Part shown: positions 6,542-19,163 of the stretch, in pieces | How the letters are laid out: every line of letters starts with the position of its first letter | Position numbering within the stretch: position 1 is the stretch's first letter | Origin: Gemmatimonadota bacterium | GTDB lineage: Bacteria; Gemmatimonadota; Gemmatimonadetes; Gemmatimonadales; GWC2-71-9 | DNA length: 64,000 nt | Assembly (NCBI GenBank): GCA_040388535.1 | Contig: JAZKBR010000002.1 | Coordinates: 376,630 to 440,629, forward strand | Reading direction: 5' to 3' | Notes under the pieces: model-generated | The model's input: the letters and a program-made list of their open reading frames with translations, nothing else | Told to the model about the DNA's origin: nothing | Databases searched by the model: none | Position numbers and translations under genes: made by a program

Positions 6542-9004
6542 ATGACTGCTCATCAACCTGACCCCGCCGAATACTCACCGCACGACGTCGAAGCCAAGTG
6601 GCGCGACCGCTGGCGCGAGCGCCGCACCAACGAGCCCGACCTCGACGGCGCGACCCGTCCGTTCTACAACCTGATGATGTTCCCGTACCCCTCTGCCGAG
6701 GGGCTGCATGTGGGCAACCTCTTCGCATTCACGGGCGCCGATGTCTTCGGGCGGTACAAGCGGCTGCAGGGGTTTCAGGTCTTCGAACCGATCGGCTTCG
6801 ATGCCTTCGGCATCCATTCCGAGAACTTCGCGCTGAAGGTCGGCAAGCACCCGGCCCAGCTGATTCCCAGCAACATCGCGAACTTCACCCGGCAGCTCAC
6901 CCGGATGGGCGGGATGTTCGCGTGGGAGCACGTCCTCTCCACCACCGACCCGACCTACTACAAGTGGACGCAGTGGCTCTTCCTGCAGCTGCTCAAGCGC
7001 GGGCTCGCCTACAAGAAGAAGGGCGCCGTCAACTGGTGCCCCAACGACAAGACCGTACTCTCGAACGAGCAAGTGGTCGGCGGCCATTGTGAGCGCTGCG
7101 GCGCGCTGGTCGAGCAGCGCGTGCTGGAGCAGTGGTATTTCCGGATTACCGATTTCGCCGATCGCCTGCTCGCGAATCTCGATGATCCCACGCGGATGGA
7201 CTGGTCGCCAAGCACTGTGCTCGCCCAGAAGAACTGGCTCGGCCGTTCGGAAGGCGCCGAGGTCCGCTTCGCCGCTGACGGTCACGCCGGCGTCGAGATT
7301 CCGGTGTACACCACCCGGCCCGACACGCTCTTCGGCGCGACCTTCCTCGTGCTCGCGCCGGAGCATCCACTGGTCCAGCAACTCACCACGCCTGCGCAGC
7401 AGGCGATGGTCGAGGCCTATCGCACCGAAGCCGGCGCGAAGGATCTGGTCTCCCGCAAGGTCGGCGACAAGGAGAAGTCCGGCGTCGCCCTCGGCAGCTT
7501 CGCGACCAACCCGGCCACGAATCAGCCGATCCCGATCTGGATTGCCGACTATGTCCTGATGGAATACGGCACCGGCGCCATCATGGCCGTGCCCGGACAC
7601 GACGAGCGCGACTTCGCCTTCGCGACGAAATATGCCCTGCCGATCACACGCGTCGTGGCGAACGCCACAAGCGGTCCCGATACCCCGCTGACCGAAGCGT
7701 TCGTCGATGTCGATAGCGGGACGATGGTGAATTCAGGCAACTTCAGCGGCATGGCCGCACTCGAAGCCAAGGCGGCGATTACCCGTTGGCTCGAGTCGGT
7801 GAATCGTGGCAAGGGGACCGTTCAGTACCGGCTCTACGACTGGTGCATCTCGCGCCAGCGCTACTGGGGTCCGCCCATTCCGATCATCTATTGCGATGAT
7901 TGCGGCGCGGTGCCGGTGCCCGAAGACCAGCTGCCAGTAGTGCTGCCCGAGATCGAAGACTTCCGTCCCGACGATTCCGGAATCTCGCCGCTGGCGCGCC
8001 ACAGCGAGTGGTACCACGTCCCTTGCCCCAGGTGCGGCAAGCAGGGCCGACGCGAGACCGACGTGTCCGACACCTTCCTCGACTCGGCGTGGTACTTCCT
8101 GCGCTATCCGAGCAGCGAGTTCAACGACCGCCCCTTCGATGCGGCACGCACGAAGACCTGGCTCCCCGTCACCAGTTACATCGGTGGCAATGAACACGCC
8201 GTGCTGCACCTGCTCTACTCGCGCTTCATCACCATGGTGCTGCATGACGCGGGCATGCTCCATTTCGACGAGCCCTTCCGCACCTTCCGCGCGCACGGGC
8301 TGATCGTGAAGGACGGCTCCAAGATGTCGAAGTCGAAGGGCAATGTGGTTGTCCCCGACGACTATATCGACAAGTGGGGCGCCGACACCTTCCGCACCTA
8401 TCTGATGTTCCTGGGCCCGTTCCAGGACGGCGGCGACTTCCGCGATTCGGGCATCAGCGGGCCGCGTCGATTCCTCGACAAGGTCTGGGATTTGGTTGCC
8501 GCGAGCGGCCACCCCGACTGCCGCGACGCCGAGATCCGGCGCGAAGTGCTGGTGAAGTGGCACCAGACCAAGAAGAAGGTCGGTGAAGAGCTCGAGCAGC
8601 TGCGCTACAACACCGCCATCGCCGCGCTGATGGAGCTGATGAATGTGCTGCGCGAGCAGAATTGTGCCGAGCCCGGCCTCGTCGGCGAAGTGGTGCAGAT
8701 GCTGGCGCCGTTCGCGCCGCACTTCGCCGAGGAGTGCTGGGAGCGCCTCGGCCACCAGGGTTCCATCTTCGACTCGGCCTGGCCGAGCTACGATCCGGCG
8801 CTTACGGTCGAGGACTCTGTCACCGTGGCCGTGCAGGTCAATGGCAAGACGCGCGGCACCGTGACACTCGCGCGTGACGCCGGCGAAGAGAGCGCACGTG
8901 CCGCAGCCCTCGCCGATGAAAGCATCGCGAAGCATCTCGAAGGCAAGGAGATCCGCAAGGTGATCTGGGTGCCGGGACGATTGCTGAACCTGGTGGTGGG
9001 GTGA
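6542..9004 (+). CDS. leuS: leucyl-tRNA synthetase
   Basis: An 820-residue class Ia synthetase that charges tRNA-Leu. The HIGH-type motif is in PYPSAEGLHVGNL, and the KMSKS loop is exact (KDGSKMSKSKGN). A zinc-like knuckle CPNDKTVLSNEQ...HCERC lies in the catalytic insertion, and the CP1 editing domain shows TTRPDTLFGATF and MAVPGHDERDFAF. The anticodon-binding and C-terminal domains are complete. The start is the ATG at 6542, directly ahead of the conserved YSPHDVEAKWRDRW; the frame stays open upstream into the terminator. The stop overlaps the csaA start by 3 bp. Confidence 0.97.
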   Translation: MTAHQPDPAEYSPHDVEAKWRDRWRERRTNEPDLDGATRPFYNLMMFPYPSAEGLHVGNLFAFTGADVFGRYKRLQGFQVFEPIGFDAFGIHSENFALKVGKHPAQLIPSNIANFTRQLTRMGGMFAWEHVLSTTDPTYYKWTQWLFLQLLKRGLAYKKKGAVNWCPNDKTVLSNEQVVGGHCERCGALVEQRVLEQWYFRITDFADRLLANLDDPTRMDWSPSTVLAQKNWLGRSEGAEVRFAADGHAGVEIPVYTTRPDTLFGATFLVLAPEHPLVQQLTTPAQQAMVEAYRTEAGAKDLVSRKVGDKEKSGVALGSFATNPATNQPIPIWIADYVLMEYGTGAIMAVPGHDERDFAFATKYALPITRVVANATSGPDTPLTEAFVDVDSGTMVNSGNFSGMAALEAKAAITRWLESVNRGKGTVQYRLYDWCISRQRYWGPPIPIIYCDDCGAVPVPEDQLPVVLPEIEDFRPDDSGISPLARHSEWYHVPCPRCGKQGRRETDVSDTFLDSAWYFLRYPSSEFNDRPFDAARTKTWLPVTSYIGGNEHAVLHLLYSRFITMVLHDAGMLHFDEPFRTFRAHGLIVKDGSKMSKSKGNVVVPDDYIDKWGADTFRTYLMFLGPFQDGGDFRDSGISGPRRFLDKVWDLVAASGHPDCRDAEIRREVLVKWHQTKKKVGEELEQLRYNTAIAALMELMNVLREQNCAEPGLVGEVVQMLAPFAPHFAEECWERLGHQGSIFDSAWPSYDPALTVEDSVTVAVQVNGKTRGTVTLARDAGEESARAAALADESIAKHLEGKEIRKVIWVPGRLLNLVVG

Positions 9005-9342
9005 GCGAGACGATCGACTTCGCCGACTTCCTGCGCGTCGATGTCCGCGTGGGAAGAATTCTCGAGGCACGCTTCAACCCGAAGGCGATCAAGCCGGCGT
9101 ATCATCTCGTGCTCGATTTCGGCCCCGAAATCGGCCGCAAGGAATCCAGTGCCCAGCTGACCGTGCACTACACTGCCGAGGAACTGGTGGGGCGCGAGGT
9201 GGTGGCGGTGGTGAACTTCGCGCCGAAGCGCGTAGCGGGCGTCAAGAGTGAAGTGCTCGTCCTGGGGGTACCCGATGCCGAGGGAGCGGTGGTGCTGCTG
9301 CAACCCACCACCGCAGTCCCGCTCGGCGGGCGATTGTACTAG
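9001..9342 (+). CDS. csaA: CsaA-type tRNA-binding domain protein
   Basis: A 113-residue single-domain protein with the OB-fold found in CsaA and in the C-terminus of MetRS. Family features include FADFLRVDVRVGRIL, the YHLVLDFG strand, SSAQLT and VVNFAPKRVAGVKSEVLVLG. CsaA proteins bind tRNA and have been reported to have chaperone activity. The GTG start overlaps the leuS stop. Its last 157 bp recur, still in frame, at 12222-12378. The stop TAG shares a CTAG with the stop of the convergent thioredoxin-like gene. Confidence 0.88.
   Translation: MSETIDFADFLRVDVRVGRILEARFNPKAIKPAYHLVLDFGPEIGRKESSAQLTVHYTAEELVGREVVAVVNFAPKRVAGVKSEVLVLGVPDAEGAVVLLQPTTAVPLGGRLY
9186..9342 (+). repeat. csaA 3'-end direct repeat, copy 1 (intact gene)
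   Basis: The final 157 bp of csaA match 12222-12378 at about 149 positions (8 mismatches by eye, half of them in the last 7 bases before the stop). The repeat ends exactly at the csaA stop. The two copies bound the 9343-12221 cassette. Confidence 0.93.
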
Positions 9343-9950
9343 AGCTCCGAGGTTGGCATCTTCAGGGTCTGCACGGCGCGTATTCGCCCCCCTAAGCCAC
9401 TCCAGAAATCGATCACTCCTGAAAGCATGCACCCTCCGATGGCTCCCAGCCTGCAATTGATCGCTTGTGTGAGACCGTTCGCGCTCCATCGGAGTTTCCC
9501 CTGCCATGCAGCTACAATCGTATCCCCACGAATAACCATCAGGACCGGCACACCTCGAATTTTCATAGCGGCGGCGGCCTCTTGGGACACGGAAACCAGT
9601 GTGTCCGGTGCACTTGCCCGATCGACGCCCCAATAGGAAAGGCCGCTCACCTCGCTACCCACCCGCAAGGCGACGAAGCGAGCTTTCCCATCCGCGACCC
9701 CTCGCCCAACTTCGCGGACCCACGAGTGGTCCATTCTGCAGTAAGGGCACCCGGTACTGTAGACATACACAAGAGACACCGAACCGGGATTGCTCAACCC
9801 CGGAGGGAAGCTATCCACTGACGGTGTCAACTGGCGCACGAGCGGAATCAACTCGGATCCATGAGTTCCTTCCGCGCGTACCACCGCGACTCGCCAGCCA
9901 ACAATCGCCAGAGCTCCGGCTCCAAGCAGCAGTCGCCCTCGACGGGTCAT
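9339..9950 (-). CDS. membrane-anchored thioredoxin-fold protein (CPYC)
   Basis: A 203-residue protein with an N-terminal membrane anchor or uncleaved signal (about residues 4-22) and an extracytoplasmic thioredoxin fold. The redox site is C68-P-Y-C71 in VYVYSTGCPYCRMD, like glutaredoxin/DsbA-type sites. A cis-proline region (RGVPVLMVIRGD) follows. After the fold there is an extra tail with two more cysteines (NCRLGAIGGCM). It is the last gene of the minus-strand cassette operon; its start overlaps the propeller stop (TGATG), with a TTG one codon upstream as an alternative. It may oxidise, reduce or isomerise the cysteines of the peptides encoded upstream; that is inference. Confidence 0.78.
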   Translation of the reverse strand: MTRRGRLLLGAGALAIVGWRVAVVRAEGTHGSELIPLVRQLTPSVDSFPPGLSNPGSVSLVYVYSTGCPYCRMDHSWVREVGRGVADGKARFVALRVGSEVSGLSYWGVDRASAPDTLVSVSQEAAAAMKIRGVPVLMVIRGDTIVAAWQGKLRWSANGLTQAINCRLGAIGGCMLSGVIDFWSGLGGRIRAVQTLKMPTSEL

Positions 9951-10966
9951 CAACGGCGGGAACCCTCTGCCGGCATTCCGAACGAGAGTACAATCGGAAG
10001 ATCGTCTCGCATTCCGAGAATGACCAACTCACCGTTGGCCACAATCACATCCATGGGTCGGACACCCAGCTTCCCCCTCAGTCTGTAGGTCTGAAGGTAT
10101 CGAAGATCCGCGGCGTCATATACGTCCACGCAGAGAAAGGAGCACGAAGTCGAACCTCCGAAATAGACGTAGATCTTCCCCGCATCCGCGCTTACATCAA
10201 GCGCGAAGGGAATAGGGAGGTCGGAAGTGTCCTTGGCTTCCATCGCTGGGCGATACTTACGCTGTTCCAGCGCCTCGATGTATTTGACCTGTTTCGGTGT
10301 ACCCGTCGGGGAGAATACTGCGAGGCCGTTGGCAGTCTTCCTGGCGGCGACACACTTCGGTGACCCGGCGGATGGCAAGGACGTCAGGTCGAGCGCCCTG
10401 TCCGTCATGCTTGGACCACCAATTGCGAACGGGTATGCGACCTTCGGCAGCGCCCTGGACTTGGAACGAATGACCCCTAAACCCGAACCGACCGGATCTG
10501 GATAGTGGACAATCACTTCCCCCGTCCGAAGCGAGCAGATCCCTGCGATGAACAAACCATTGGGAATGCTTCGCTCCTCCAGCAGCTTCCCGCTGGTGGC
10601 AATGAAATAGAGGCGGCGAGTTCCGTTGTCGACGATGACGGTCCCATCCGGGTGCCAGGATGCGAGCACGGGCTGAATCATCTCGCCAGGCCCACGCCCC
10701 TTCTTCCCGTATCTCCACAGTTCCTTGCCAGTACGACTGTCGAGCGCGACGACTCCAGGCGCACCTGGGTCCGTGATGAGGACCAGCGACCCGGACGCCA
10801 TGATTCTGTTTGGGTTGACGAGGGGACCCGACGAATCGCCACCGACAACCCACCGAGCGTCGGAGTATTTGAGTTGTAGCTCAATCACCTTGCGGCCGCC
10901 CTGTCCGGCGGCCGACGCGGCTAGGATGAGTGCCCACACACCCGCGAGGCGTGCCACTCGAGTCAT
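9950..10966 (-). CDS. secreted six-bladed beta-propeller protein
   Basis: A 338-residue exported protein: signal peptide MTRVARLAGVWALILAASAAG, then repeating blade-like segments. The sequence GKKGRGPGEM near residue 90 is the loop motif shared with the other two propellers of this window (35651-36817 and 62782-63996). Other blade cores are LVLITDPGAPGVVALD, GTVIVDNGTRRLYF and KIYVYFGG. No catalytic residues were recognised; such propellers often act as binding scaffolds. The ATG at 10966 was chosen over an upstream in-frame start because it begins the signal peptide. It lies between two cysteine peptides and the thioredoxin-like gene in one transcript direction. Confidence 0.75.
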   Translation of the reverse strand: MTRVARLAGVWALILAASAAGQGGRKVIELQLKYSDARWVVGGDSSGPLVNPNRIMASGSLVLITDPGAPGVVALDSRTGKELWRYGKKGRGPGEMIQPVLASWHPDGTVIVDNGTRRLYFIATSGKLLEERSIPNGLFIAGICSLRTGEVIVHYPDPVGSGLGVIRSKSRALPKVAYPFAIGGPSMTDRALDLTSLPSAGSPKCVAARKTANGLAVFSPTGTPKQVKYIEALEQRKYRPAMEAKDTSDLPIPFALDVSADAGKIYVYFGGSTSCSFLCVDVYDAADLRYLQTYRLRGKLGVRPMDVIVANGELVILGMRDDLPIVLSFGMPAEGSRR

Positions 10967-11032
10967 TCGGAATCCTCGCTCACTAGCGATGTATGGAAAT
11001 GCCACCCTTGCCGCGCCCCGAGTCACTGATCT

Positions 11033-11260
11033 TCAGATCCCACCAGCAGGACCTTCCCACTTGTACACCTGAATCGTGCGACACATCCGGACTCCCTGCT
11101 CATTAATGAAACAATCACCTGGATCGAAGACGTAGCCACAACTGGTACTTGAGACCGTCGCGAGACAGAGAGGGATCTCCTGCTGCGCTGCCCCGGCTCG
11201 AGGGCCGAGTGCGATAGCGGCTACAAGGAACACCGTCAGAACAAGAAACTTGCGAAACAT
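11033..11260 (-). CDS. small secreted four-cysteine peptide, paralogue 1
   Basis: A 75-residue precursor with a signal peptide (MFRKFLVLTVFLVAAIALGP, cleavage probably after AGA) and a mature part of about 50 residues. Its four mature cysteines have the spacing C-x8-C-x8-C-x9-C, with CGY at the second cysteine and DC at the third. A strong SD, GGAGGT, lies 6 bases before the ATG. It is clearly related to the neighbouring 11279-11503 product. Two disulfides are likely. No known family was recognised. Possible roles include a secreted signal, antimicrobial peptide or propeller ligand. Confidence 0.68.
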   Translation of the reverse strand: MFRKFLVLTVFLVAAIALGPRAGAAQQEIPLCLATVSSTSCGYVFDPGDCFINEQGVRMCRTIQVYKWEGPAGGI

Positions 11261-11278
11261 CAGAGTACCTCCGGATGA

Positions 11279-11503
11279 CTAGCTGATGATGGGACCGGAA
11301 CCGGTTGGGCGATACTTGTTGAGAATGGGGCAGTAGGCTTTGCCATCCTGGGTCACACAATGATCGAGATCGATCTCGTATCCGCAAAGCACTGCCGCAG
11401 GCGCTGTCGAACACGCCTGTTCCTGTTCCCTCGCGTCTGACCGCCCCGGGAGGAGCAGGAGCGCCGCGACCGCGAAGAATCCGGTCTTGAGTATGCGAGA
11501 CAT
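11279..11503 (-). CDS. small secreted four-cysteine peptide, paralogue 2
   Basis: A 74-residue precursor with signal peptide MSRILKTGFFAVAALLLLPG and a mature cysteine pattern C-x8-C-x8-C-x8-C, again with CGY and a D-x-D-x-C segment. The tail KYRPTGSGPIIS parallels KWEGPAGGI of paralogue 1. The ATG at 11503 was chosen because the preceding GGAGGT (10 bases upstream) acts as SD; an ATG six codons earlier contains that SD within its own first codons. It is the first gene of the minus-strand cassette operon. The two peptides share spacing but little sequence, so the duplication is not recent. Confidence 0.66.
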   Translation of the reverse strand: MSRILKTGFFAVAALLLLPGRSDAREQEQACSTAPAAVLCGYEIDLDHCVTQDGKAYCPILNKYRPTGSGPIIS

Positions 11504-11590
11504 CTTCAAACTGACCTCCATGTTGTTGAGTGCTTATGCTGGCAGGAGAAGAACTCCTCCAAGGTCTCGACCCCTGGATTATCCGTCAAT

Positions 11591-11606
11591 AGTGCAATCT
11601 TGCACT
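11591..11606. promoter_or_regulatory. perfect palindrome in the divergent cassette promoter region
   Basis: AGTGCAATCTTGCACT has 7-bp arms around a TC spacer. It lies in the unusually AT-rich 247-bp gap between the peptide operon (start 11503, minus) and the HTH gene (start 11769, plus), at a place where an operator would act. A TTGACA at 11637-11642 could be a -35 element for the HTH gene. Binding by the neighbouring regulator is inferred. Confidence 0.45.
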
Positions 11607-11650
11607 AGCATTGGGTCAAAGAAATCCTATTCCCGCTTGACACGGTCAAT

Positions 11651-11857
11651 TCATTCGTAAGAATCGCACAGGCTCCTTGCGTTGCACGCTGTCAATCGCT
11701 TACCGTTTTGCTTAACCAATACGAATTCACTACAGCACAACTGATATACCTCACCCCCAGAGGCCAGTTTGTCGCAACCCTGCATCGCGCCCCCGGCGCA
11801 GTCACCGCGAATTCCGTTCGTACTCACAGCACAACAGTTTGAGCTGGTCTGCGACAC
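11651..11857 (-). CDS. possible cysteine-rich small protein (doubtful)
   Basis: A 68-codon frame from a GTG start encodes eight cysteines (positions 8, 9, 20, 28, 41, 42, 58, 64), including two CC pairs. It has no signal peptide, no good SD, and overlaps the 5' part of the plus-strand HTH gene by 89 bp. The frame stays open upstream without an ATG. It could be a chance frame or a remnant of a third cassette peptide. Confidence 0.2.
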   Translation of the reverse strand: MSQTSSNCCAVSTNGIRGDCAGGAMQGCDKLASGGEVYQLCCSEFVLVKQNGKRLTACNARSLCDSYE

Positions 11858-12068
11858 TTGGCGCCTCTCCCCGCAAGAGCGGCAGTGCTTTGCCTTGCTT
11901 TTGGCTTGGAAGGTTCCGAAGGAAATTGCTCGGACGATGGGGCTCGAGGTCTCAACCGTCCGGACGATGATTGGTCGGATTTACCGGGAGAGGGCGCGGG
12001 TCTGGGGCGGTGTCCTACCTTTGCTTTCAGCCGCGGCGGAACTGCTCGCTCAGGCACCTATCGCCTAA
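11769..12068 (+). CDS. small LuxR-type helix-turn-helix regulator
   Basis: A 99-residue protein whose centre is a GerE/LuxR-type HTH: LSPQERQCFALLLAWKVPKEIARTMGLEVSTVRTMIGRIY, in two recognisable helices, with EIARTMGL and the recognition helix STVRTMIGRIYRE. There is no receiver or autoinducer domain, so it is a stand-alone DNA-binding protein. No ATG is available ahead of the domain; a TTG at 11769 preceded by AGAGG at a 5-base spacing is the likely start. It is transcribed divergently from the peptide/propeller/thioredoxin operon and is the obvious candidate regulator of it. Confidence 0.66.
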   Translation: MSQPCIAPPAQSPRIPFVLTAQQFELVCDTWRLSPQERQCFALLLAWKVPKEIARTMGLEVSTVRTMIGRIYRERARVWGGVLPLLSAAAELLAQAPIA

Positions 12069-12175
12069 TCCTGCGCCACCGAAACCGGAGGTGCGGTCGA
12101 AGTATCACAAGCGGAATCGCCCGCTAAATACGATGTCCATCGGAAATAGGGCGGCGTCTCGGGGCGAGGGCAATT

Positions 12176-12378
12176 TGCAAGTGAGCTGGGTACCGGGACG
12201 CAGTTCGCCGTCCATTAGACCGGTGGGGCGCGAGGTGGTAGCGGTGGTGAACTTCGAACCGAAGCGCGTAGCGGGCGTCAAGAGTGAAGTGCTCGTCCTG
12301 GGGGTACCCGATGCCGAGGGAGCGGTGGTGCTGCTGCAACCCACCACCGCAGTCCCCCTCGGCGGGCGTCTCTTCTAG
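12176..12378 (+). pseudogene. leuS-csaA remnant: csaA 3' end, direct repeat copy 2
   Basis: Positions 12222-12378 repeat the last 157 bp of csaA and keep its frame and TAG stop. Differences from copy 1 are mainly silent or conservative (NFEPKR for NFAPKR, final Phe for Tyr), as if the copy had evolved as a working gene before truncation. The first 60 or so codons are missing. Just upstream, 12176-12200 resembles the end of leuS: the translated WVPGR and about 22 of 25 bases match leuS near 8956-8980, so this is a shrunken leuS-csaA junction with an internal deletion. An ATG at 12133 is in frame but has no SD. It ends on a CTAG shared with the convergent permease stop. Confidence 0.82.
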
Positions 12379-14996
12379 CGTTCCTCCCGCATGGCAAGCT
12401 GCGGCGAGACTCGGGCCGCGCGCAGTGCCGGCAGCAGCGTCGCCAGGAACGCCACGACCAGCAACACTCCCGCGATCCCCACGAATGCCACCGGATCAGT
12501 CGGTGTGATCCCGAACAGGATGGCACGCATCGCTCGGGTGACCAGCAGCGCCACGACGGTACCGATCCCCAGACCAAGCAACGCATTCCCCAAGCCGTAG
12601 CGCAGCACCAGCGCAGTGATCCCCACGGGCTCGGCGCCAAGCGCAAGGCGGATACCGAGTTCACGCTGCCGTTCCTGAACGTCCCCGGCACACATCCCGT
12701 GAATGCCAACCGCCGCAAGCATCATCGCACAGAGCCCGAAGGCCGCGAGGATGAAAGCGGTGAATCGCTCGCTCGCCACGGCGTCGCCGATCACGGCATT
12801 GAGCGATGCGACCCGGAACAACGGCACATCGGGATCGATCGATGCCAGTGCCTGACGTATCACCGGTACGATGCTCTCGTTGCCGCGTACCATGAGGTCG
12901 ATGCTGTTGCCCGTCGATTGCCCGATTGCCAGGTATGCCGTGGGATTCGGGGGCTGGCGCACTCCGGCGATCCGGGCATCCGCAACCACACCGATCACCT
13001 CGGCCGTGATCCCGCCGTTCAGCTGAATCACTGCACGCTTTCCGATGGGGGATCCGCCGGGCCAGAGATGGTCCGCCAGACCGCGAGTGATCACCACCAC
13101 CGGAGGTGCGTCGGCGCGATCGGTAGCGCTCATCAGCCGCCCTGCGAGCAGCGGCATCTGCAATGCCCGAAAATAGTCGCGGTCGGCCCATCGAATATCG
13201 ACCGGCGGCGGCTCCATTCCGGCCACGATCGCAGCTCCCTCCGCGAGCACCGTCGTGCGTGGTCCGCCGCCACCGAACGGTCGCAGACTCACGGCGCCTG
13301 CCGCAGTCACTCCGGGTTGCGCACGCGCGGTTCCGACAATTGCGTCGAAGACGGCCAGACGCCGACCGGCGTCAGGGTACCGCTCCGTGGGCAACATGAT
13401 CCGCATTGTGGTGACGGTATGCGGATCGAAGCCGAGATCCACCGCCTGCAACGCGACGAAACTGCGGACGGCGAGCCCGGCCGCGACGCTGAGCACTAGC
13501 GCAAGAGCCACCTCGGCCACAACGAGCGCCCGGCCGCTGCGTCGCGTGATCCGCACGCTGGCGTGTTCTCGCAGGGTCGATGCGGCGTTGCCCCTGGTGG
13601 CGCGCCAGGCCGGAAGAATGCCACACACGAGCGCGGTGGCAATCGAGATCACTGCCGAGGCAATCACCACAGGCGCATCCACGCCTGGAATTGCAGGCTT
13701 CGCGATCTCGGCCGGCAAGAGCCGGTAGAGGATTCGCACACCCCACGCGGCCGCCAGCGTTCCCGCCACACCACCGACCAGGGCGAGCAGGGAACTTTGC
13801 GCCAGCAGTTGTCGCACGACCCGACCTCGTGAGGCCCCCAGCGAAACGCGGAGTGCCAACTCACCCTCGCGCCGTCGCAGGTGTGCCAGGGTCAGCGTGG
13901 CCACGTTCACGATTCCCATCACCAGTAGCAGTCCTACCGCCCCGAGCAGCACCAGGAGCGGCGTGCGTGCATCGCCCGTAATTTCGCGCCGCAAGTCGAC
14001 TATCGCCGTCGACCACCCGGCCGCCTCCGGCACCGACTCCGCATGTTGGGCGGCCAGCCGATCGAGGGCGGTGACGGCAACCTCCTTCGTCACGCCTGCA
14101 TGCATCCGGCCGATAACCGCGAACGCCCGACCCCAGGCCCGGAGGTCTGCAGCTGGTATCAGCGGGATCCACAGATCCTGGTCGGCCATCCACCCGAGTC
14201 TCGGAGGCTCGAAGGACGGCGGCATGACACCGATCACGGTATACGGCACGTTGTCGAGCGCGATGGTCTTGCCCACAACAGCGCGATCAGCAGCGAGCTG
14301 ATTCGACCAGAAGGCGTGCGACAACACGACCAGTCGCGTCCCCGCGACTTCGTCGGAGGGCAGCAGCGTCCTGCCGAGCATCGCCCGGCTCCCGAGCAAC
14401 GTGAAGTAACCCGGTGAGACCTGTGCCCCGGCCACACGCGATGCGGCGCCGGCGCCGGTGAGCGTGCTTGGCGCAGGCACCAGCGCTGCCATCCCGTCGA
14501 AGAGCGCCTGCTCCGCTCGCCAGGCTTCGAATGACGCCATCGACGCCGGCGTGTGTTCGAGCTGCCGCTGGGCGTTGCGCTCCCAGATCGCGACCAGGCG
14601 ATGCGGTTCGACATAGGGCAGGTCGCGCAACACGACGCCGTGCACCACCGTGTAGAGCGCCGCGGTCGCTCCAATGCCGAGGGCGAGCGTGAGCACCACG
14701 GCGAGCGTAAACGTCGGTGCTCGGAGCAGCACGCGCGTCGCGTGCCGCAGGTCGGCCGTCAAGTCTTCGAGGCGACGAACGCCGCGACTGTCCCGCGACT
14801 CTTCCTTGAAGCGCTCGACTCCCCCGAAGCGCAGCAATGCTTCGCGACGCGCCGCCGCGGGAGCTGTCCCCCGCGCGACCAGCTCGGCGGTCTCGCACTC
14901 GATGTGGTACTGCATCTCAGCGCTCATCTGTTGTTCGTGCGACGACCGGCTCAACCAGAGCCGCACGCGCCGCAGTCTGACGAAGATCCAGTTCAT
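12375..14996 (-). CDS. ADOP-type ABC transporter permease
   Basis: An 873-residue FtsX/MacB-like permease of the acidobacterial duplicated orphan permease (ADOP) type. The cytoplasmic N-terminus (about 80 residues, ending RRLEDLTADLRHATRVLLRAP) is followed by TM1 (FTLAVVLTLALGIGATAALY). Then come a MacB-like periplasmic domain, three TM helices, a second periplasmic domain and three final TM helices. No ATPase is encoded next to it, hence orphan. The ATG at 14996 has SD GAGGT 6 bases upstream. It lies 7 bases after the stop of its PadR gene, so the pair is co-transcribed. Transport substrate is unknown. Confidence 0.87.
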   Translation of the reverse strand: MNWIFVRLRRVRLWLSRSSHEQQMSAEMQYHIECETAELVARGTAPAAARREALLRFGGVERFKEESRDSRGVRRLEDLTADLRHATRVLLRAPTFTLAVVLTLALGIGATAALYTVVHGVVLRDLPYVEPHRLVAIWERNAQRQLEHTPASMASFEAWRAEQALFDGMAALVPAPSTLTGAGAASRVAGAQVSPGYFTLLGSRAMLGRTLLPSDEVAGTRLVVLSHAFWSNQLAADRAVVGKTIALDNVPYTVIGVMPPSFEPPRLGWMADQDLWIPLIPAADLRAWGRAFAVIGRMHAGVTKEVAVTALDRLAAQHAESVPEAAGWSTAIVDLRREITGDARTPLLVLLGAVGLLLVMGIVNVATLTLAHLRRREGELALRVSLGASRGRVVRQLLAQSSLLALVGGVAGTLAAAWGVRILYRLLPAEIAKPAIPGVDAPVVIASAVISIATALVCGILPAWRATRGNAASTLREHASVRITRRSGRALVVAEVALALVLSVAAGLAVRSFVALQAVDLGFDPHTVTTMRIMLPTERYPDAGRRLAVFDAIVGTARAQPGVTAAGAVSLRPFGGGGPRTTVLAEGAAIVAGMEPPPVDIRWADRDYFRALQMPLLAGRLMSATDRADAPPVVVITRGLADHLWPGGSPIGKRAVIQLNGGITAEVIGVVADARIAGVRQPPNPTAYLAIGQSTGNSIDLMVRGNESIVPVIRQALASIDPDVPLFRVASLNAVIGDAVASERFTAFILAAFGLCAMMLAAVGIHGMCAGDVQERQRELGIRLALGAEPVGITALVLRYGLGNALLGLGIGTVVALLVTRAMRAILFGITPTDPVAFVGIAGVLLVVAFLATLLPALRAARVSPQLAMREER

Positions 14997-15003
14997 CGCG
15001 ACC

Positions 15004-15363
15004 TCACGTTGCACGCAGCACGTGATTCACTGCTAGCGAAAAGACCCGCCACGACTGCACCGCCTCGGTCATCTGTTGCTGACCAGCCAGCGTCAGGCGA
15101 TAGACCTTGATGCGCCGCCCCTCGGGCGAACTCTCCTCGGAGCCAACGATCCAGCCGCGGTCCTCCAACCGGTACAGCGCGGGGTAGAGTGACCCCTGGT
15201 TGACGGAGAGCACGTCACGGGAGGTCTGCTGGATCCGCTTCGAAATGGCCCAGCCATGGAGCGGAGTGTTGCCCAGCGCCTTCAGGATCAGCAGATCAAG
15301 CGTTCCCTGGAGCAGGTCGGCCTTGCCGTCGCGCATTCGCACCCCGAGCGTTGCAGAGGTCAT
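15004..15363 (-). CDS. PadR family transcriptional regulator
   Basis: A 119-residue winged-helix PadR repressor. The core shows LLQGTLDLLILKALGNTPLHGWAISKRI, the NQGSLYPALYRLEDRGWI recognition/wing region and the RRIKVYRLTLAGQ wing, all standard for PadR proteins found next to ADOP permeases. Start choice is uncertain: ATG at 15363 gives a short extra N-terminus, and an ATG at 15336 with GGGGTG upstream is also possible. It is transcribed with the permease at 12375-14996 and divergently from a second PadR gene. Confidence 0.88.
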   Translation of the reverse strand: MTSATLGVRMRDGKADLLQGTLDLLILKALGNTPLHGWAISKRIQQTSRDVLSVNQGSLYPALYRLEDRGWIVGSEESSPEGRRIKVYRLTLAGQQQMTEAVQSWRVFSLAVNHVLRAT

Positions 15364-15372
15364 ACTATGCCG

Positions 15373-15404
15373 TTCGACATAAGCCTGCGTCATCGGTTGT
15401 CGAA
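15373..15404. promoter_or_regulatory. inverted repeat upstream of the minus-strand PadR gene
   Basis: TTCGACA (15373-15379) and TGTCGAA (15398-15404) form perfect 7-bp arms 18 bp apart, starting 10 bp upstream of the ATG at 15363. Position and symmetry suit an autoregulatory operator; this is inference. Confidence 0.4.
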
Positions 15405-15455
15405 TGTCAATGTATCCGTGGGCTACTTGTCTGCGTGGCACTGCGGCAGTAGCTT

Positions 15456-15474
15456 CCCCGTGTACTACACGGGG
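15456..15474. promoter_or_regulatory. perfect 19-bp palindrome, candidate PadR operator
   Basis: CCCCGTGTACTACACGGGG has 9-bp perfect arms around one base. Its right arm runs into the GGGGAGA that serves as SD for the PadR gene starting at 15486, so a bound dimer would block both transcription and ribosome loading. PadR proteins usually autorepress at palindromes near their own start. Confidence 0.6.
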
Positions 15475-15485
15475 AGAACAACCAG

Positions 15486-15842
15486 ATGAAAGAAGCCACC
15501 TCGAATCTTCCGATTCTCAAAGGGACCCTCGACATGCTGGTCCTCAAGGCGTTGAGTGGCGGACCCATGCACGGCTTCGGAATCGCCCTCTGGTTGGAGC
15601 AGCATTCAACGGGGCAACTCGAACTCGACGACAGCCTCACCTATCAGGTGCTTCATCGCCTCGAGGGACGCGGCCTCATCGACGCCGAATGGCGCGTGAC
15701 CAGCAAGAACCGACGCGCCCGTCTGTATACCCTGAATCGCGCGGGTCATGACCACCTTGGGGCGGAATTCCAGCAGTGGCTCCGCTTCAGCAGTGTCGTC
15801 ACCGGCATCATGACGCAGACCCTCCACCCTCACCCGGGATAG
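15486..15842 (+). CDS. PadR family transcriptional regulator (second copy)
   Basis: A 118-residue PadR winged-helix protein: LPILKGTLDMLVLKALSGGPMHGFGIALWLE, then SLTYQVLHRLEGRGLIDAEW and the RRARLYTLNRAGHDHL wing. It differs clearly from the divergent copy at 15004-15363, so the two probably recognise different operators. SD GGAG lies 9 bases before the ATG. Its stop is 6 bp before the ATG of the plus-strand ADOP permease. Confidence 0.9.
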   Translation: MKEATSNLPILKGTLDMLVLKALSGGPMHGFGIALWLEQHSTGQLELDDSLTYQVLHRLEGRGLIDAEWRVTSKNRRARLYTLNRAGHDHLGAEFQQWLRFSSVVTGIMTQTLHPHPG

Positions 15843-15848
15843 CAGGCG

Positions 15849-18548
15849 ATGCCTGACAGTTCGGGCAAGCTTCCGCCAGGGGCACGATGGTTTCGTCTGC
15901 GACCGAGAGGACGCGCGGCGATCGAGGCGCAGATGCGTGAAGAACTCGACGCGCATCTCGCCCTTGCCACCGAGTATCTGGTGTCGCGTGGCGTCCCGCC
16001 TCAGCAGGCCGAGGACCAGGCGCGGGCACGCTTTCGTGATTTCGAGACCGCACGGCAGAACCTCTACCGCACCGCCAGACAGCGTGAGGCAGAAATGGCA
16101 CGTCACCAGGCCCTCGGGGAAGTCCGCACCGACATTCGATTCACGATCGAAGGAATCGCTCGCGACCTCCGCCTCGCGGCCCGCGGATTTCGTCGCGTGC
16201 CGGCCTTTGCCGCCGCGGCACTCATGACGCTGGCGCTCGGGATTGGTGCCACCACGACGGTGCTCTCACTCGCGTACAACATCTGGCTCAGACCACTGCC
16301 GTACGCCGATCCAGCTCGACTCGTCACGCTGCGGGACGCCTATCGCGGGCAAGGCGTGGGCGGGGTCTCGTCAGCGGAGATCGAGGATTTCCGTACCAAT
16401 CCGTTCCTGGGCGGCGTCGCCGGATTCTCCTACGGTGCGGCCATCACCAAGGTCGCCGGGGAACCGGTACGGCTGGTCTGCTATCGTGTCACCAGCAATC
16501 TCTTCGAAGTGCTTGGCGTCAGACCGATCCTTGGGCGTGGCTTTGTGGCCGAAGAGGGCATCCAGGGTCGGGGCGCGGTCGTAGTGATCAGCCACCGGTT
16601 CTGGAACCAGCGACTCGGAAGCGACCCGGCGGCCGTTGGAAAATCGCTGGAACTCTTCGGTTCGACCTTCACGATCATCGGTGTCATGCCGAAGGAGTTC
16701 CAGATTCCTTCGGGCGTTCGAAGTGACCTGTGGATTCCCAGCGAGAATGTCGGCGTCGCAGCGAATCGCGGCCAGCGATACGCCGGCGCAGTGGCCCGCC
16801 TCAAACCCGCAGCGAGCCTTCAACAGGCGCAGGCGGGAATGGCTCCTATCAATAGTCGCCTGGCGCAGGACTACCCCGACACCCATCGGGAATGGACAAC
16901 CATTCTGACTTCGATCAGCGACGAGACGCTCGGAAGCTACCGCGCAGCGTTCACATTCCTGTTGGGGACCGTCGGCCTGCTGCTCTTGATTGCCTGCGCG
17001 AACATCGCAAGCCTCTTTCTCGCACGAAACAGCGCGCGTCACGGCGAGCTGGCGGTACGGGTGGCCTTGGGGGCGACTCGCGGCCGGCTCACCAGACAAC
17101 TCTTCATTGAGAGTCTTCTGCTTTCCGCTGCTGGTGGTGTGCTGGGAATACTCGCGGCGCGACTCGGCACCCCCTTGCTGGTCAGGATGTTGCCGCCAGG
17201 CACGCCCCGGCTTGACGAGGTCGCTGTCAACTTGCCGGTGCTGGGATTCGCCGTGCTGCTCTCGGGACTCGCCGGGATACTCTGCGCCATCGCTCCAGCC
17301 TGGCACTTGAGCACGAACGCGCCTCACGAGTGGATCAAGGGAATGAGTCGCACCGTCGTGCAAGGCCGGCACGCACTGCAACAGACGCTGGTGATCGCGC
17401 AGGTTGCGCTGTCGCTGATGCTGATGGTGGGCGCCGGATTGATGCTCAAGAGCTTCTTCCACCTGACAGCCCGCGACCACGGATACGATCCACAAGGGTT
17501 GCTGACAATGAGCGTCACCGTTCCATTCGATCGCTACGGGAGCGAGTCGGCACGCGCCCAGGTCTATCAGCAGATCACTGGCCACATCGCCCGACTGCCG
17601 ACGGTAGAATCGGTGGGTGAGGTCAACGGATTCCCGGGGAGCGGGCTCGGTACGCTTGGTTTTGGCTCCGTCGGAACCAAGCCGGGTTCGCCATCCGTAC
17701 AGGTCACCCTGCATGCGAACGGGCCGGACTACTTCCGGACGATGAGGACGCCGCTCATCTCAGGGAGAGCGTTCACCGGGCAGGATCGGGGCGGGACACC
17801 GCACGTCCTCATCGTCAATCAGGCGTTGGCGGCGAAATTGTGGCCCGGCGAAAGTCCCATCGGCAAATCGCTCGTACTCCCGGCAGCGATGATGGCGATG
17901 GCCGGGGGCGACAAGGAAACCGCGTTCGAGGTGGTTGGTGTCGCAGGCGACATGCGACTCCGTGCACTCCAGGCCCCGCCGGAAATCTTCATACCCACGT
18001 CGCAGGCGACCCCGTTCTGGACCAACCTCGTCATTCGAACTCGTGACAATCCGTCAGCGGCCATCGAGGGCATCCGGCATGCCATCACGTCGGTCGAGCC
18101 GGACATGCTCATCGAGAACGTCGTTCCGATGGACGAGATTGTGTCGGGTTCGGTCGCGATGCAGCGTGCTCAGAGCACGATCGTCACTGTCTTCGGCGCC
18201 CTCGCCGCCCTCCTGTCCTCGGTTGGCCTCTACGGGCTGCTCTCGCACCTTGTGAGTCAACGGCTGCGAGAAATAGGAGTGCGGCTGGCACTGGGGGCGC
18301 GCCGCGCCGACGTTTTCAAGTCGGTCGTCTCGCGCGGGATGGTGTTGGCCTCGATCGGGATTGCTGCCGGAAGCGGCGCTGCGTACGCCTTGGTGCGGGC
18401 CATGCGCACGCAGGTCTTCGGACTCGCCACGGTCGAGCCGGGTGTGTTTGTCGGCGCTATCGCCGTATTGCTCGTCGTCTCCCTGGCTGGCTGCTACTTC
18501 CCCGCCTGGCGCGCGACACGAATCGATCCACTCACGGCGCTGCGCTGA
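15849..18548 (+). CDS. ADOP-type ABC transporter permease (second copy)
   Basis: An 899-residue orphan duplicated permease. The N-terminal cytoplasmic region has the ADOP-type MREELDAHLALATEYLVSRG and IRFTIEGIARDLRLAARGFRR, followed by TM1 (ALMTLALGIGATTTVLSLAY). Two MacB-like periplasmic domains alternate with FtsX-type three-helix bundles; the last bundle ends PAWRATRIDPLTALR, the usual FtsX terminus. It is co-transcribed with the PadR gene 6 bp upstream. It shares architecture with the minus-strand permease but the sequences are well diverged, so this is not a recent duplication. Partner ATPase and substrate are unknown. Confidence 0.88.
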   Translation: MPDSSGKLPPGARWFRLRPRGRAAIEAQMREELDAHLALATEYLVSRGVPPQQAEDQARARFRDFETARQNLYRTARQREAEMARHQALGEVRTDIRFTIEGIARDLRLAARGFRRVPAFAAAALMTLALGIGATTTVLSLAYNIWLRPLPYADPARLVTLRDAYRGQGVGGVSSAEIEDFRTNPFLGGVAGFSYGAAITKVAGEPVRLVCYRVTSNLFEVLGVRPILGRGFVAEEGIQGRGAVVVISHRFWNQRLGSDPAAVGKSLELFGSTFTIIGVMPKEFQIPSGVRSDLWIPSENVGVAANRGQRYAGAVARLKPAASLQQAQAGMAPINSRLAQDYPDTHREWTTILTSISDETLGSYRAAFTFLLGTVGLLLLIACANIASLFLARNSARHGELAVRVALGATRGRLTRQLFIESLLLSAAGGVLGILAARLGTPLLVRMLPPGTPRLDEVAVNLPVLGFAVLLSGLAGILCAIAPAWHLSTNAPHEWIKGMSRTVVQGRHALQQTLVIAQVALSLMLMVGAGLMLKSFFHLTARDHGYDPQGLLTMSVTVPFDRYGSESARAQVYQQITGHIARLPTVESVGEVNGFPGSGLGTLGFGSVGTKPGSPSVQVTLHANGPDYFRTMRTPLISGRAFTGQDRGGTPHVLIVNQALAAKLWPGESPIGKSLVLPAAMMAMAGGDKETAFEVVGVAGDMRLRALQAPPEIFIPTSQATPFWTNLVIRTRDNPSAAIEGIRHAITSVEPDMLIENVVPMDEIVSGSVAMQRAQSTIVTVFGALAALLSSVGLYGLLSHLVSQRLREIGVRLALGARRADVFKSVVSRGMVLASIGIAAGSGAAYALVRAMRTQVFGLATVEPGVFVGAIAVLLVVSLAGCYFPAWRATRIDPLTALR

Positions 18549-18566: not shown

Positions 18567-19163
18567 TCAGGGCGTCGGGGTCCCTTCGATCCGCGCCTTG
18601 AGTCGCTTGAGGTCCGACTCATAGATCAGTCGCAGCGCACCCACCATCACCTTGCTGGCGCCCGAAACAATCGCGCCGCCCATCTTGCTGCTGTCCTTGG
18701 TCGCCGTCCCTACCGAATCCATGAATGGCGCCGAGAAAGTGCTGATCAGGACGGTGGAATCGCCCTGTGCCACCAGCGAATCGCGCCGCATCATCAACGT
18801 GCTTTTCACCTTCCCGGTGTCGGGGCGCATCTCGAGCACCAGCAACCGCGGTGCCGAAATTTCCTTGACGACCCAGTCCATGTTCTGGCGGTTGCCACCG
18901 ATCTCGCGACCCGGATCATCGAGCACCAGCGTGTCGCCTGCGACCAGCATCCCCTTGCCGATCGGCCGCGTGACCTTGGCCGACGCGACCCACGCCGACA
19001 TCGAGTCCGGCGTTGCGAGCGACGCGAAGATCCGCTCCGGCGAGCCGGCAATTGTCATGGTGAGGGTATCACCCGCAGCGGTCATCTTCTTGTAGCCGAA
19101 GTACGCCCCGCCGATGACCACGATCGCCAGCACCGCCAGGATGCCCAGGATCCATTTCCACAT
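18567..19163 (-). CDS. membrane-anchored SRPBCC/START-like protein
   Basis: A 198-residue protein with one N-terminal TM helix (WILGILAVLAIVVIGGAYFGY). The single following domain reads like the SRPBCC ligand-binding fold: TMTIAGSPERIFASLATPDSMSAWV at its start, matrix-like strands, and a long C-terminal helix (VMVGALRLIYESDLKRLKARI). The ligand is unknown. Its ATG lies 3 bp after the ferritin stop, so it is co-transcribed with ferritin. Confidence 0.68.
   Translation of the reverse strand: MWKWILGILAVLAIVVIGGAYFGYKKMTAAGDTLTMTIAGSPERIFASLATPDSMSAWVASAKVTRPIGKGMLVAGDTLVLDDPGREIGGNRQNMDWVVKEISAPRLLVLEMRPDTGKVKSTLMMRRDSLVAQGDSTVLISTFSAPFMDSVGTATKDSSKMGGAIVSGASKVMVGALRLIYESDLKRLKARIEGTPTP

Follow-up and report, generated by a model that had tools for sequence, protein, structure and literature searches.

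Two small secreted peptides of a Gemmatimonadota bacterium, each with four cysteines in its mature part, are encoded at the head of a compact operon that continues with an exported protein predicted to fold as a six-bladed NHL-type propeller and with a thioredoxin-fold protein that harbors a CPYC site. With a probability of about 0.58, we consider the pair to be cargo within an exported cassette whose thioredoxin-fold protein sets the disulfides and whose propeller binds the folded peptide. The operon is found within the window, a term used here for the whole stretch of 64,000 nucleotides that was analyzed, and comparable sets of genes recur in other genera.

The peptides and their operon

The operon and the divergent reading frame beside it comprise the following features.

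11279..11503, minus strand: peptide A, 74 amino acids, with a predicted Sec signal, a mature part of about 50 amino acids and four cysteines
11033..11260, minus strand: peptide B, 75 amino acids, with a predicted Sec signal and a mature part of about 50 amino acids, paralogue of A
9950..10966, minus strand: exported propeller, predicted six-bladed and NHL-type, 338 amino acids including the predicted signal peptide
9339..9950, minus strand: thioredoxin-fold protein, exported or anchored, with an S-T-G-C-P-Y-C site and the cis-proline loop GVPV
11769..12068, plus strand: divergent HTH open reading frame, resembling sigma-70 region 4.2 and LuxR, inside the insertion described below

Both peptide reading frames were found where the original prediction had placed them; they lie on the minus strand, and the secretion signals that the prediction ascribed to them are borne out by a predicted Sec signal in each. 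Peptide A starts at ATG 11503, with a GGAGG Shine-Dalgarno sequence upstream; a longer alternative, from ATG 11521, has no Shine-Dalgarno sequence. Peptide B starts at 11260, 18 nt past the end of A, and is likewise preceded by GGAGG. The propeller starts at ATG 10966 with GAGG upstream, GTG 11026 being a possible but less likely alternative, and the start of the thioredoxin-fold gene overlaps the propeller stop (TGATG). Because the intergenic gaps are 18, 66 and -1 nt, the four genes are read as one operon, in the order peptide A, peptide B, propeller and CPYC thioredoxin-fold protein. This context, with the propeller and CPYC genes downstream of the peptides, had been missed by the original prediction.

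Just upstream of the operon, and antisense to the HTH reading frame, is a frame of 68 codons with eight cysteines (11651-11857, minus strand). As a candidate for a third peptide it was dismissed because it lacks a signal peptide, and it is probably not a gene.

Relationship between the two peptides

The cysteines of mature A are arranged as C-STAPAAVL-C-GYEIDLDH-C-VTQDGKAY-C (x8, x8, x8) and those of mature B as C-LATVSSTS-C-GYVFDPGD-C-FINEQGVRM-C (x8, x8, x9). The common framework is C-x8-CGY-x6-C-x8/9-C, and the columns shared by both peptides are C, C-G-Y, D, C, G, C, Y and G. The four-cysteine spacing is thus conserved as had been claimed, and the random placement of four cysteines in two 50-mers gives gaps as similar as these with P = 0.0006. 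The residues said to be shared hold for CGY, but an acidic residue before the third cysteine is only roughly right, since the position directly before it holds D in B but H in A; the acidic residue that does align is an Asp four positions before this cysteine.

The alignment of the mature parts has a score of 44. Shuffles that kept the cysteines in place reached it 11 times in 20,000, and shuffles of all residues once in 20,000. Tandem paralogy is upheld because the similarity beats 19,989 of the 20,000 cysteine-fixed shuffles, and a search with peptide A also retrieves B from its own genome at E = 0.0011. Judged by their sequences, A and B are paralogues, and old ones, with about 22% identity across the mature part, a pS of 0.74 and a pN of 0.53. 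As this pS is saturated, the dN/dS ratio to which the original prediction had looked is not measurable on the pair. Selection on a disulfide fold, which had been read from the spacing, is plausible.

Profile searches placed neither A nor B in a Pfam or NCBIfam family, and a sequence search of the PDB with peptide A gave no relative, in agreement with the earlier statement that no known family could be recognized. A pattern scan of the genome contigs with peptide A retrieved no relatives, and a search with A found no orthologues in 250 genomes of the order. In this order-wide search only peptide B was a genuine match, the others being unrelated fragments, and a secreted cysteine peptide was present at 0 of the 23 loci matched. 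The absence of same-spaced homologues from any genome had been named as counter-evidence and, taken literally, this is what the searched genomes returned, as the exact spacing was seen nowhere else in them. Across the wider system set out below, it is the partnership that is conserved and not the cysteine pattern. Structure prediction, which had also been proposed, gave a weak AlphaFold model of the peptide (pLDDT 55.7) in which only a hairpin at about residues 26-34 appears; this model was left out of the evidence.

The propeller and the thioredoxin-fold protein

The AlphaFold model of the propeller has a pLDDT of 83.4 and a pTM of 0.81. Comparison of this model with solved folds by Foldseek gave 6d69, 1q7f and 7qrv as the best matches, with E values of about 4e-10 to 4e-11. 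These nearest solved folds are the six-bladed NHL propellers Thin, Brat and TRIM2, and by its predicted fold the window propeller belongs to the same class. Its sequence matches the TRIM2 NHL propeller at 5e-8 and gives weak matches to PQQ-like and NHL propellers.

The thioredoxin-fold protein has a weak match to Thioredoxin_2 (E = 2.9e-4), below the curated Pfam cut-off. Both cysteines of the CPYC site and the proline of GVPV are invariant in an alignment of four proteins, and the protein is 32% identical to its counterpart in L193, a propeller operon from another genus. With its CxxC site and cis-proline, it is a predicted oxidoreductase. The window operon thus contains the parts by which we define the cassette, namely a small secreted peptide that has four or more cysteines, a six-bladed propeller (here a predicted one) and the gene of an exported thioredoxin-fold protein.

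A related combination is found in NHLRC2, where a thioredoxin-like domain is fused to a six-bladed NHL propeller and a conserved cleft has been proposed to bind a partner (PMC6107167). Its motif is CCINC, and its authors found no conserved bacterial operon (PMC6107167). NHLRC2 and SOQ1 resemble the cassette in that a thioredoxin-like fold works with a six-bladed NHL propeller, but they are fused proteins with no small peptide, whereas the proteins of the cassette are separate and exported, with peptide genes in front.

Acquisition of the cassette

The cassette is flanked by two direct repeats.

9183..9348, plus strand: left direct repeat, the 3' end of an intact csaA-like gene (9001-9342)
12219..12384, plus strand: right direct repeat, apparently what is left of the ancestral csaA 3' end after its displacement, at the far edge of the insert

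The repeats are 166 nt long and 93% identical. The intact csaA-like gene ends in GGRLY and the right-hand fragment in GGRLF, and the csaA proteins of six sister genomes end in GGRLF or GGRMF. Since it is the right fragment, and not the intact gene, that ends like the relatives, the insert appears to carry its own csaA 3' end, with the native one displaced, and the left repeat was probably brought in by the insertion. In six sister genomes, which lack the insertion, a homologue of window gene 18570-19163 comes after leuS-csaA. Compared with these genomes, the window has approximately 9 kb of extra DNA (9349-18548), the first ~3 kb of which is the peptide cassette; the rest (12375-18548) consists of two modules, in opposite orientation, of PadR and a MacB/FtsX-type permease. 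The comparison indicates that the cassette entered the 3' end of csaA as an insertion of ~3 kb. No integrase was seen at the csaA insertion, which looks like an integrase-free integration through which a protein gene receives a new 3' end.

Recurrence in related genomes

Relatives were sought with two probes, the propeller as a query and a profile built on the thioredoxin-fold protein. In a genome of another genus (G226; L223/L199), the gene order of the window is repeated, with two secreted cysteine peptides, then a propeller and then a thioredoxin-fold protein that has STGCPYC, and a close relative of this operon in G129 (L193) has the order peptide-propeller-thioredoxin. The arrangement in G070 (L187) is peptide-peptide-propeller-thioredoxin, with CGFC as the active site motif; its peptides comprise two near-identical copies and a third, divergent one. 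A sister species (L037) has peptide-propeller-thioredoxin with CQYC, and at three loci (L033, L034 and L035) peptides are paired with DsbA-like proteins. The window pair has weak similarity to the peptides encoded in the nearest operon (A with L199b, p = 0.003; B with L199a, p = 0.03; both uncorrected for 18 comparisons each), so that a shared ancestry is claimed for A and B only. The peptides may be replaced, or may diverge fast, while their partners stay.

In the genus g47, a profile search found a six-cysteine peptide, one per genome, in 24 genomes. At the g47 loci examined, this peptide is followed by a thioredoxin-like protein without CxxC and then by a propeller; catalysis by the thioredoxin-like partner therefore cannot be general. 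The secreted six-cysteine peptides of g47 and g65 (L072, L080, L098-L123) have 121-131 amino acids and the pattern STAC..GT..CG..P..C ... LYKD ... C. Their thioredoxin-like partner, in which CxxC is lost, has a conserved D-C-x-G-N-L, and in g65 a second, four-cysteine peptide copy is found past the propeller. Like the window pair, the g47/g65 peptides are secreted and are encoded upstream of a thioredoxin-like gene and of a propeller, the latter homologous to that of the window; their core, similar to that of the pair, is C-x7-CG-x6-C followed by C...YK. Unlike the pair, they are of the greater length just given and have a longer loop between the third and fourth cysteines as well as two more cysteines. 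Homology with the window pair is not claimed: the motif is alike, but the test with the g47 peptide profile was negative, with 2.1 and 6.0 bits on the window peptides and many shuffles scoring higher. Both window peptides match C-x6..9-CG-x5..8-C-...-C-x3..10-[YF][KR], and no other open reading frame in the loci then examined fits this motif, which was drawn up after viewing both groups.

The link between peptides and thioredoxin-fold genes was assessed with a fixed detector, a home-made signal-peptide heuristic that calls for an ATG, a Shine-Dalgarno sequence, a hydrophobic signal and at least four cysteines in the mature part. Of 23 related thioredoxin loci outside the query, 12 had a secreted peptide of this kind nearby. 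The same detector scored 0 of 30 at DPPIV control loci, which represent one family only, and 0 of 23 at noise loci (p = 5e-6 and 7e-5, respectively, against the thioredoxin loci). A phylum-wide search with an enlarged profile, itself partly built from peptide-linked thioredoxin proteins, gave 22 more loci, 12 of them with a peptide (p = 3e-6) and only one of the 22 with a propeller nearby. Because the wider loci are mostly free of propellers, the pairing of thioredoxin and peptide is the more general link, with the propeller as a frequent third member. Propellers also work without peptides, since such a peptide is found at only 4 of 28 loci of the window's own propeller family, and no such peptide accompanies the nearest paralogue of the propeller in this genome, which is 42% identical to it.

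Proposed mechanism and significance

From this arrangement we infer the following mechanism. The Sec pathway would export the peptides unfolded, and the cotranscribed CPYC protein would oxidize, isomerize or proofread their four cysteines to give two disulfides. The two cysteines that flank the DG/QG turn probably close a beta-hairpin. The propeller would bind the folded peptide, holding or presenting it in the periplasm or at the surface, and by analogy with the fused NHLRC2 the propeller and thioredoxin-fold protein may form one binding cleft; that NHLRC2 joins both folds, with a conserved cleft, supports the two as a unit (PMC6107167). Having two divergent paralogues could allow one propeller and one oxidoreductase to serve two ligands.

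A broader reading, which we offer tentatively as possible rather than probable, would extend this to a phylum-wide system. In it, thioredoxin-fold proteins devoted to the task, in many cases together with an NHL-type propeller, would fold and hold many rapidly diverging secreted disulfide-rich peptides, some of them with the defensin CS-alpha-beta fold by convergence or ancestry and others, the window pair among them, built on new cysteine frameworks, and the modules would move as small insertions.

A literature search for such a peptide-propeller-thioredoxin cassette found no description, and the team seems to be undescribed so far. If the proposal is true, these little-studied bacteria export disulfide-rich peptides in great variety, some of them defensin-like, and may be a bacterial source for the origin of defensins. 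Each peptide set would come with its own folding and binding partners, providing natural matched pairs of oxidoreductase and peptide, and the many exported NHL propellers annotated just as '6-bladed beta-propeller' would gain a first testable role. The cassette is small enough to be transferred as a single unit to E. coli for testing.

Defensins and a possible antimicrobial role

The pair could alternatively be antimicrobial, of a bacteriocin or defensin-like type, in which case the peptides would be secreted toxins matured by the thioredoxin-fold protein, with the propeller as an immunity protein or release aid. CS-alpha-beta spacing is found in 15 of 82 distinct small secreted cysteine peptides from all loci examined, compared with 0.13% of shuffles; several of the thioredoxin-paired peptides in the wider set have it (L222, L244, L245, L250 and L256). 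The secreted peptide at L250 (2313-2519), which adjoins a TlpA-like gene, falls at the exact cut-off of the Pfam arthropod family Defensin_2 (E 4.8e-4) and is a candidate bacterial defensin, probably outside the published phyla, and another related-locus peptide matches AtDEF-like at 3e-4. The published set comprises 74 bacterial defensins, from Proteobacteria with one from Acidobacteria and one from Actinobacteria, in five cis-defensin classes, and its description mentions neither thioredoxin nor Gemmatimonadota (PMC11561630). An antimicrobial role would also suit the tandem arrays, the sequence divergence and the location of the cassette within an insertion, and actifensin-type bacterial defensins do kill bacteria (PMC6989792).

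The window pair resembles the cis-defensins (PMC11561630; actifensins, PMC6989792) in being small, secreted and presumably disulfide-rich, but differs in having four cysteines at x8/x8/x8-9, with neither CxxxC nor CxC. A regular expression for the CS-alpha-beta framework, C-x(n)-C-x3-C ... C-x(n)-C-x-C, does not find it in either window peptide, and the Pfam defensin profiles gave no match to them at E <= 1; as cysteine framework and profiles do not fit, identification of the pair as cis-defensins was rejected. For xanthusin-1, which is a bacterial defensin, tests revealed no antimicrobial activity (PMC11561630). The window peptides are moreover acidic, with a net charge of about -2 by count, unlike membrane-active bacteriocins, and the operon has no immunity gene, bacteriocin exporter or protease. 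We regard an antimicrobial role for the pair as unlikely.

Other alternatives

In methylamine dehydrogenase, a propeller forms the large subunit and a cysteine-rich protein the small one, with the thioredoxin-like MauD for the disulfides. The Mau cluster (MauA/MauB/MauD) is therefore like the cassette in bringing together a cysteine-rich small exported protein, a propeller and a thioredoxin-like maturation protein. Peptide and propeller might accordingly be subunits of one extracytoplasmic enzyme, given that the window operon likewise unites these three kinds of gene and that the wheel fold suits a large subunit. This is improbable, however, as peptide A has no tryptophan and therefore offers no tryptophan-derived cofactor, its cysteines number four against twelve in MauA, no Mau family is among the NCBIfam matches at E <= 1, and the propeller is predicted to be of the six-bladed NHL type and not the seven-bladed amine dehydrogenase type. 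The unrelated peptides of related operons are also hard to square with one active site.

Equally doubtful is a role as peptide signals, in which pheromone-like ligands would be received or carried outside the cytoplasm by the propeller and the divergent HTH reading frame would respond. Divergent ligands with conserved partners would be expected of such a system, propellers are commonly ligand-binding wheels, and the HTH frame adjoins the operon. This frame might possibly encode a regulator, but its matches to Sigma70_r4_2 (E = 4e-5) and GerE (E = 6e-5) are both just below the curated cut-offs, any travel of it with the cassette is hypothetical, and no membrane sensor joins the exported propeller to it. 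That A and B are chance reading frames without function, as the lack of orthologues in the 250 genomes and the contig scan might suggest, is very improbable in view of two good Shine-Dalgarno sites, two signal peptides, a similarity that exceeds cysteine-fixed shuffles and an operon context that recurs.

The NVEALA peptides (PF14055) of Bacteroidetes are also small, exported and cysteine-containing, with little sequence conservation. The PF14055 profile matched neither the window peptides nor anything else in the window's genome, and membership of this family was rejected.

Other peptide loci

At L222 (G171:C1:42000-61000), an array of several near-identical eight-cysteine secreted peptides with CS-alpha-beta spacing adjoins genes of CQYC thioredoxin-fold proteins as well as repeated, divergent genes encoding an exported protein of ~440 amino acids with the motif CDTPGVTLIDPDV. 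The window's own genome has a further locus (L030; G000:C2:1186000-1197000), where two more secreted cysteine peptides, with four and eight cysteines, are found with propellers, a multi-pass membrane protein resembling the HTTM/gamma-carboxylase type and a DCC1-like thiol oxidoreductase; this is a different arrangement of the same parts.
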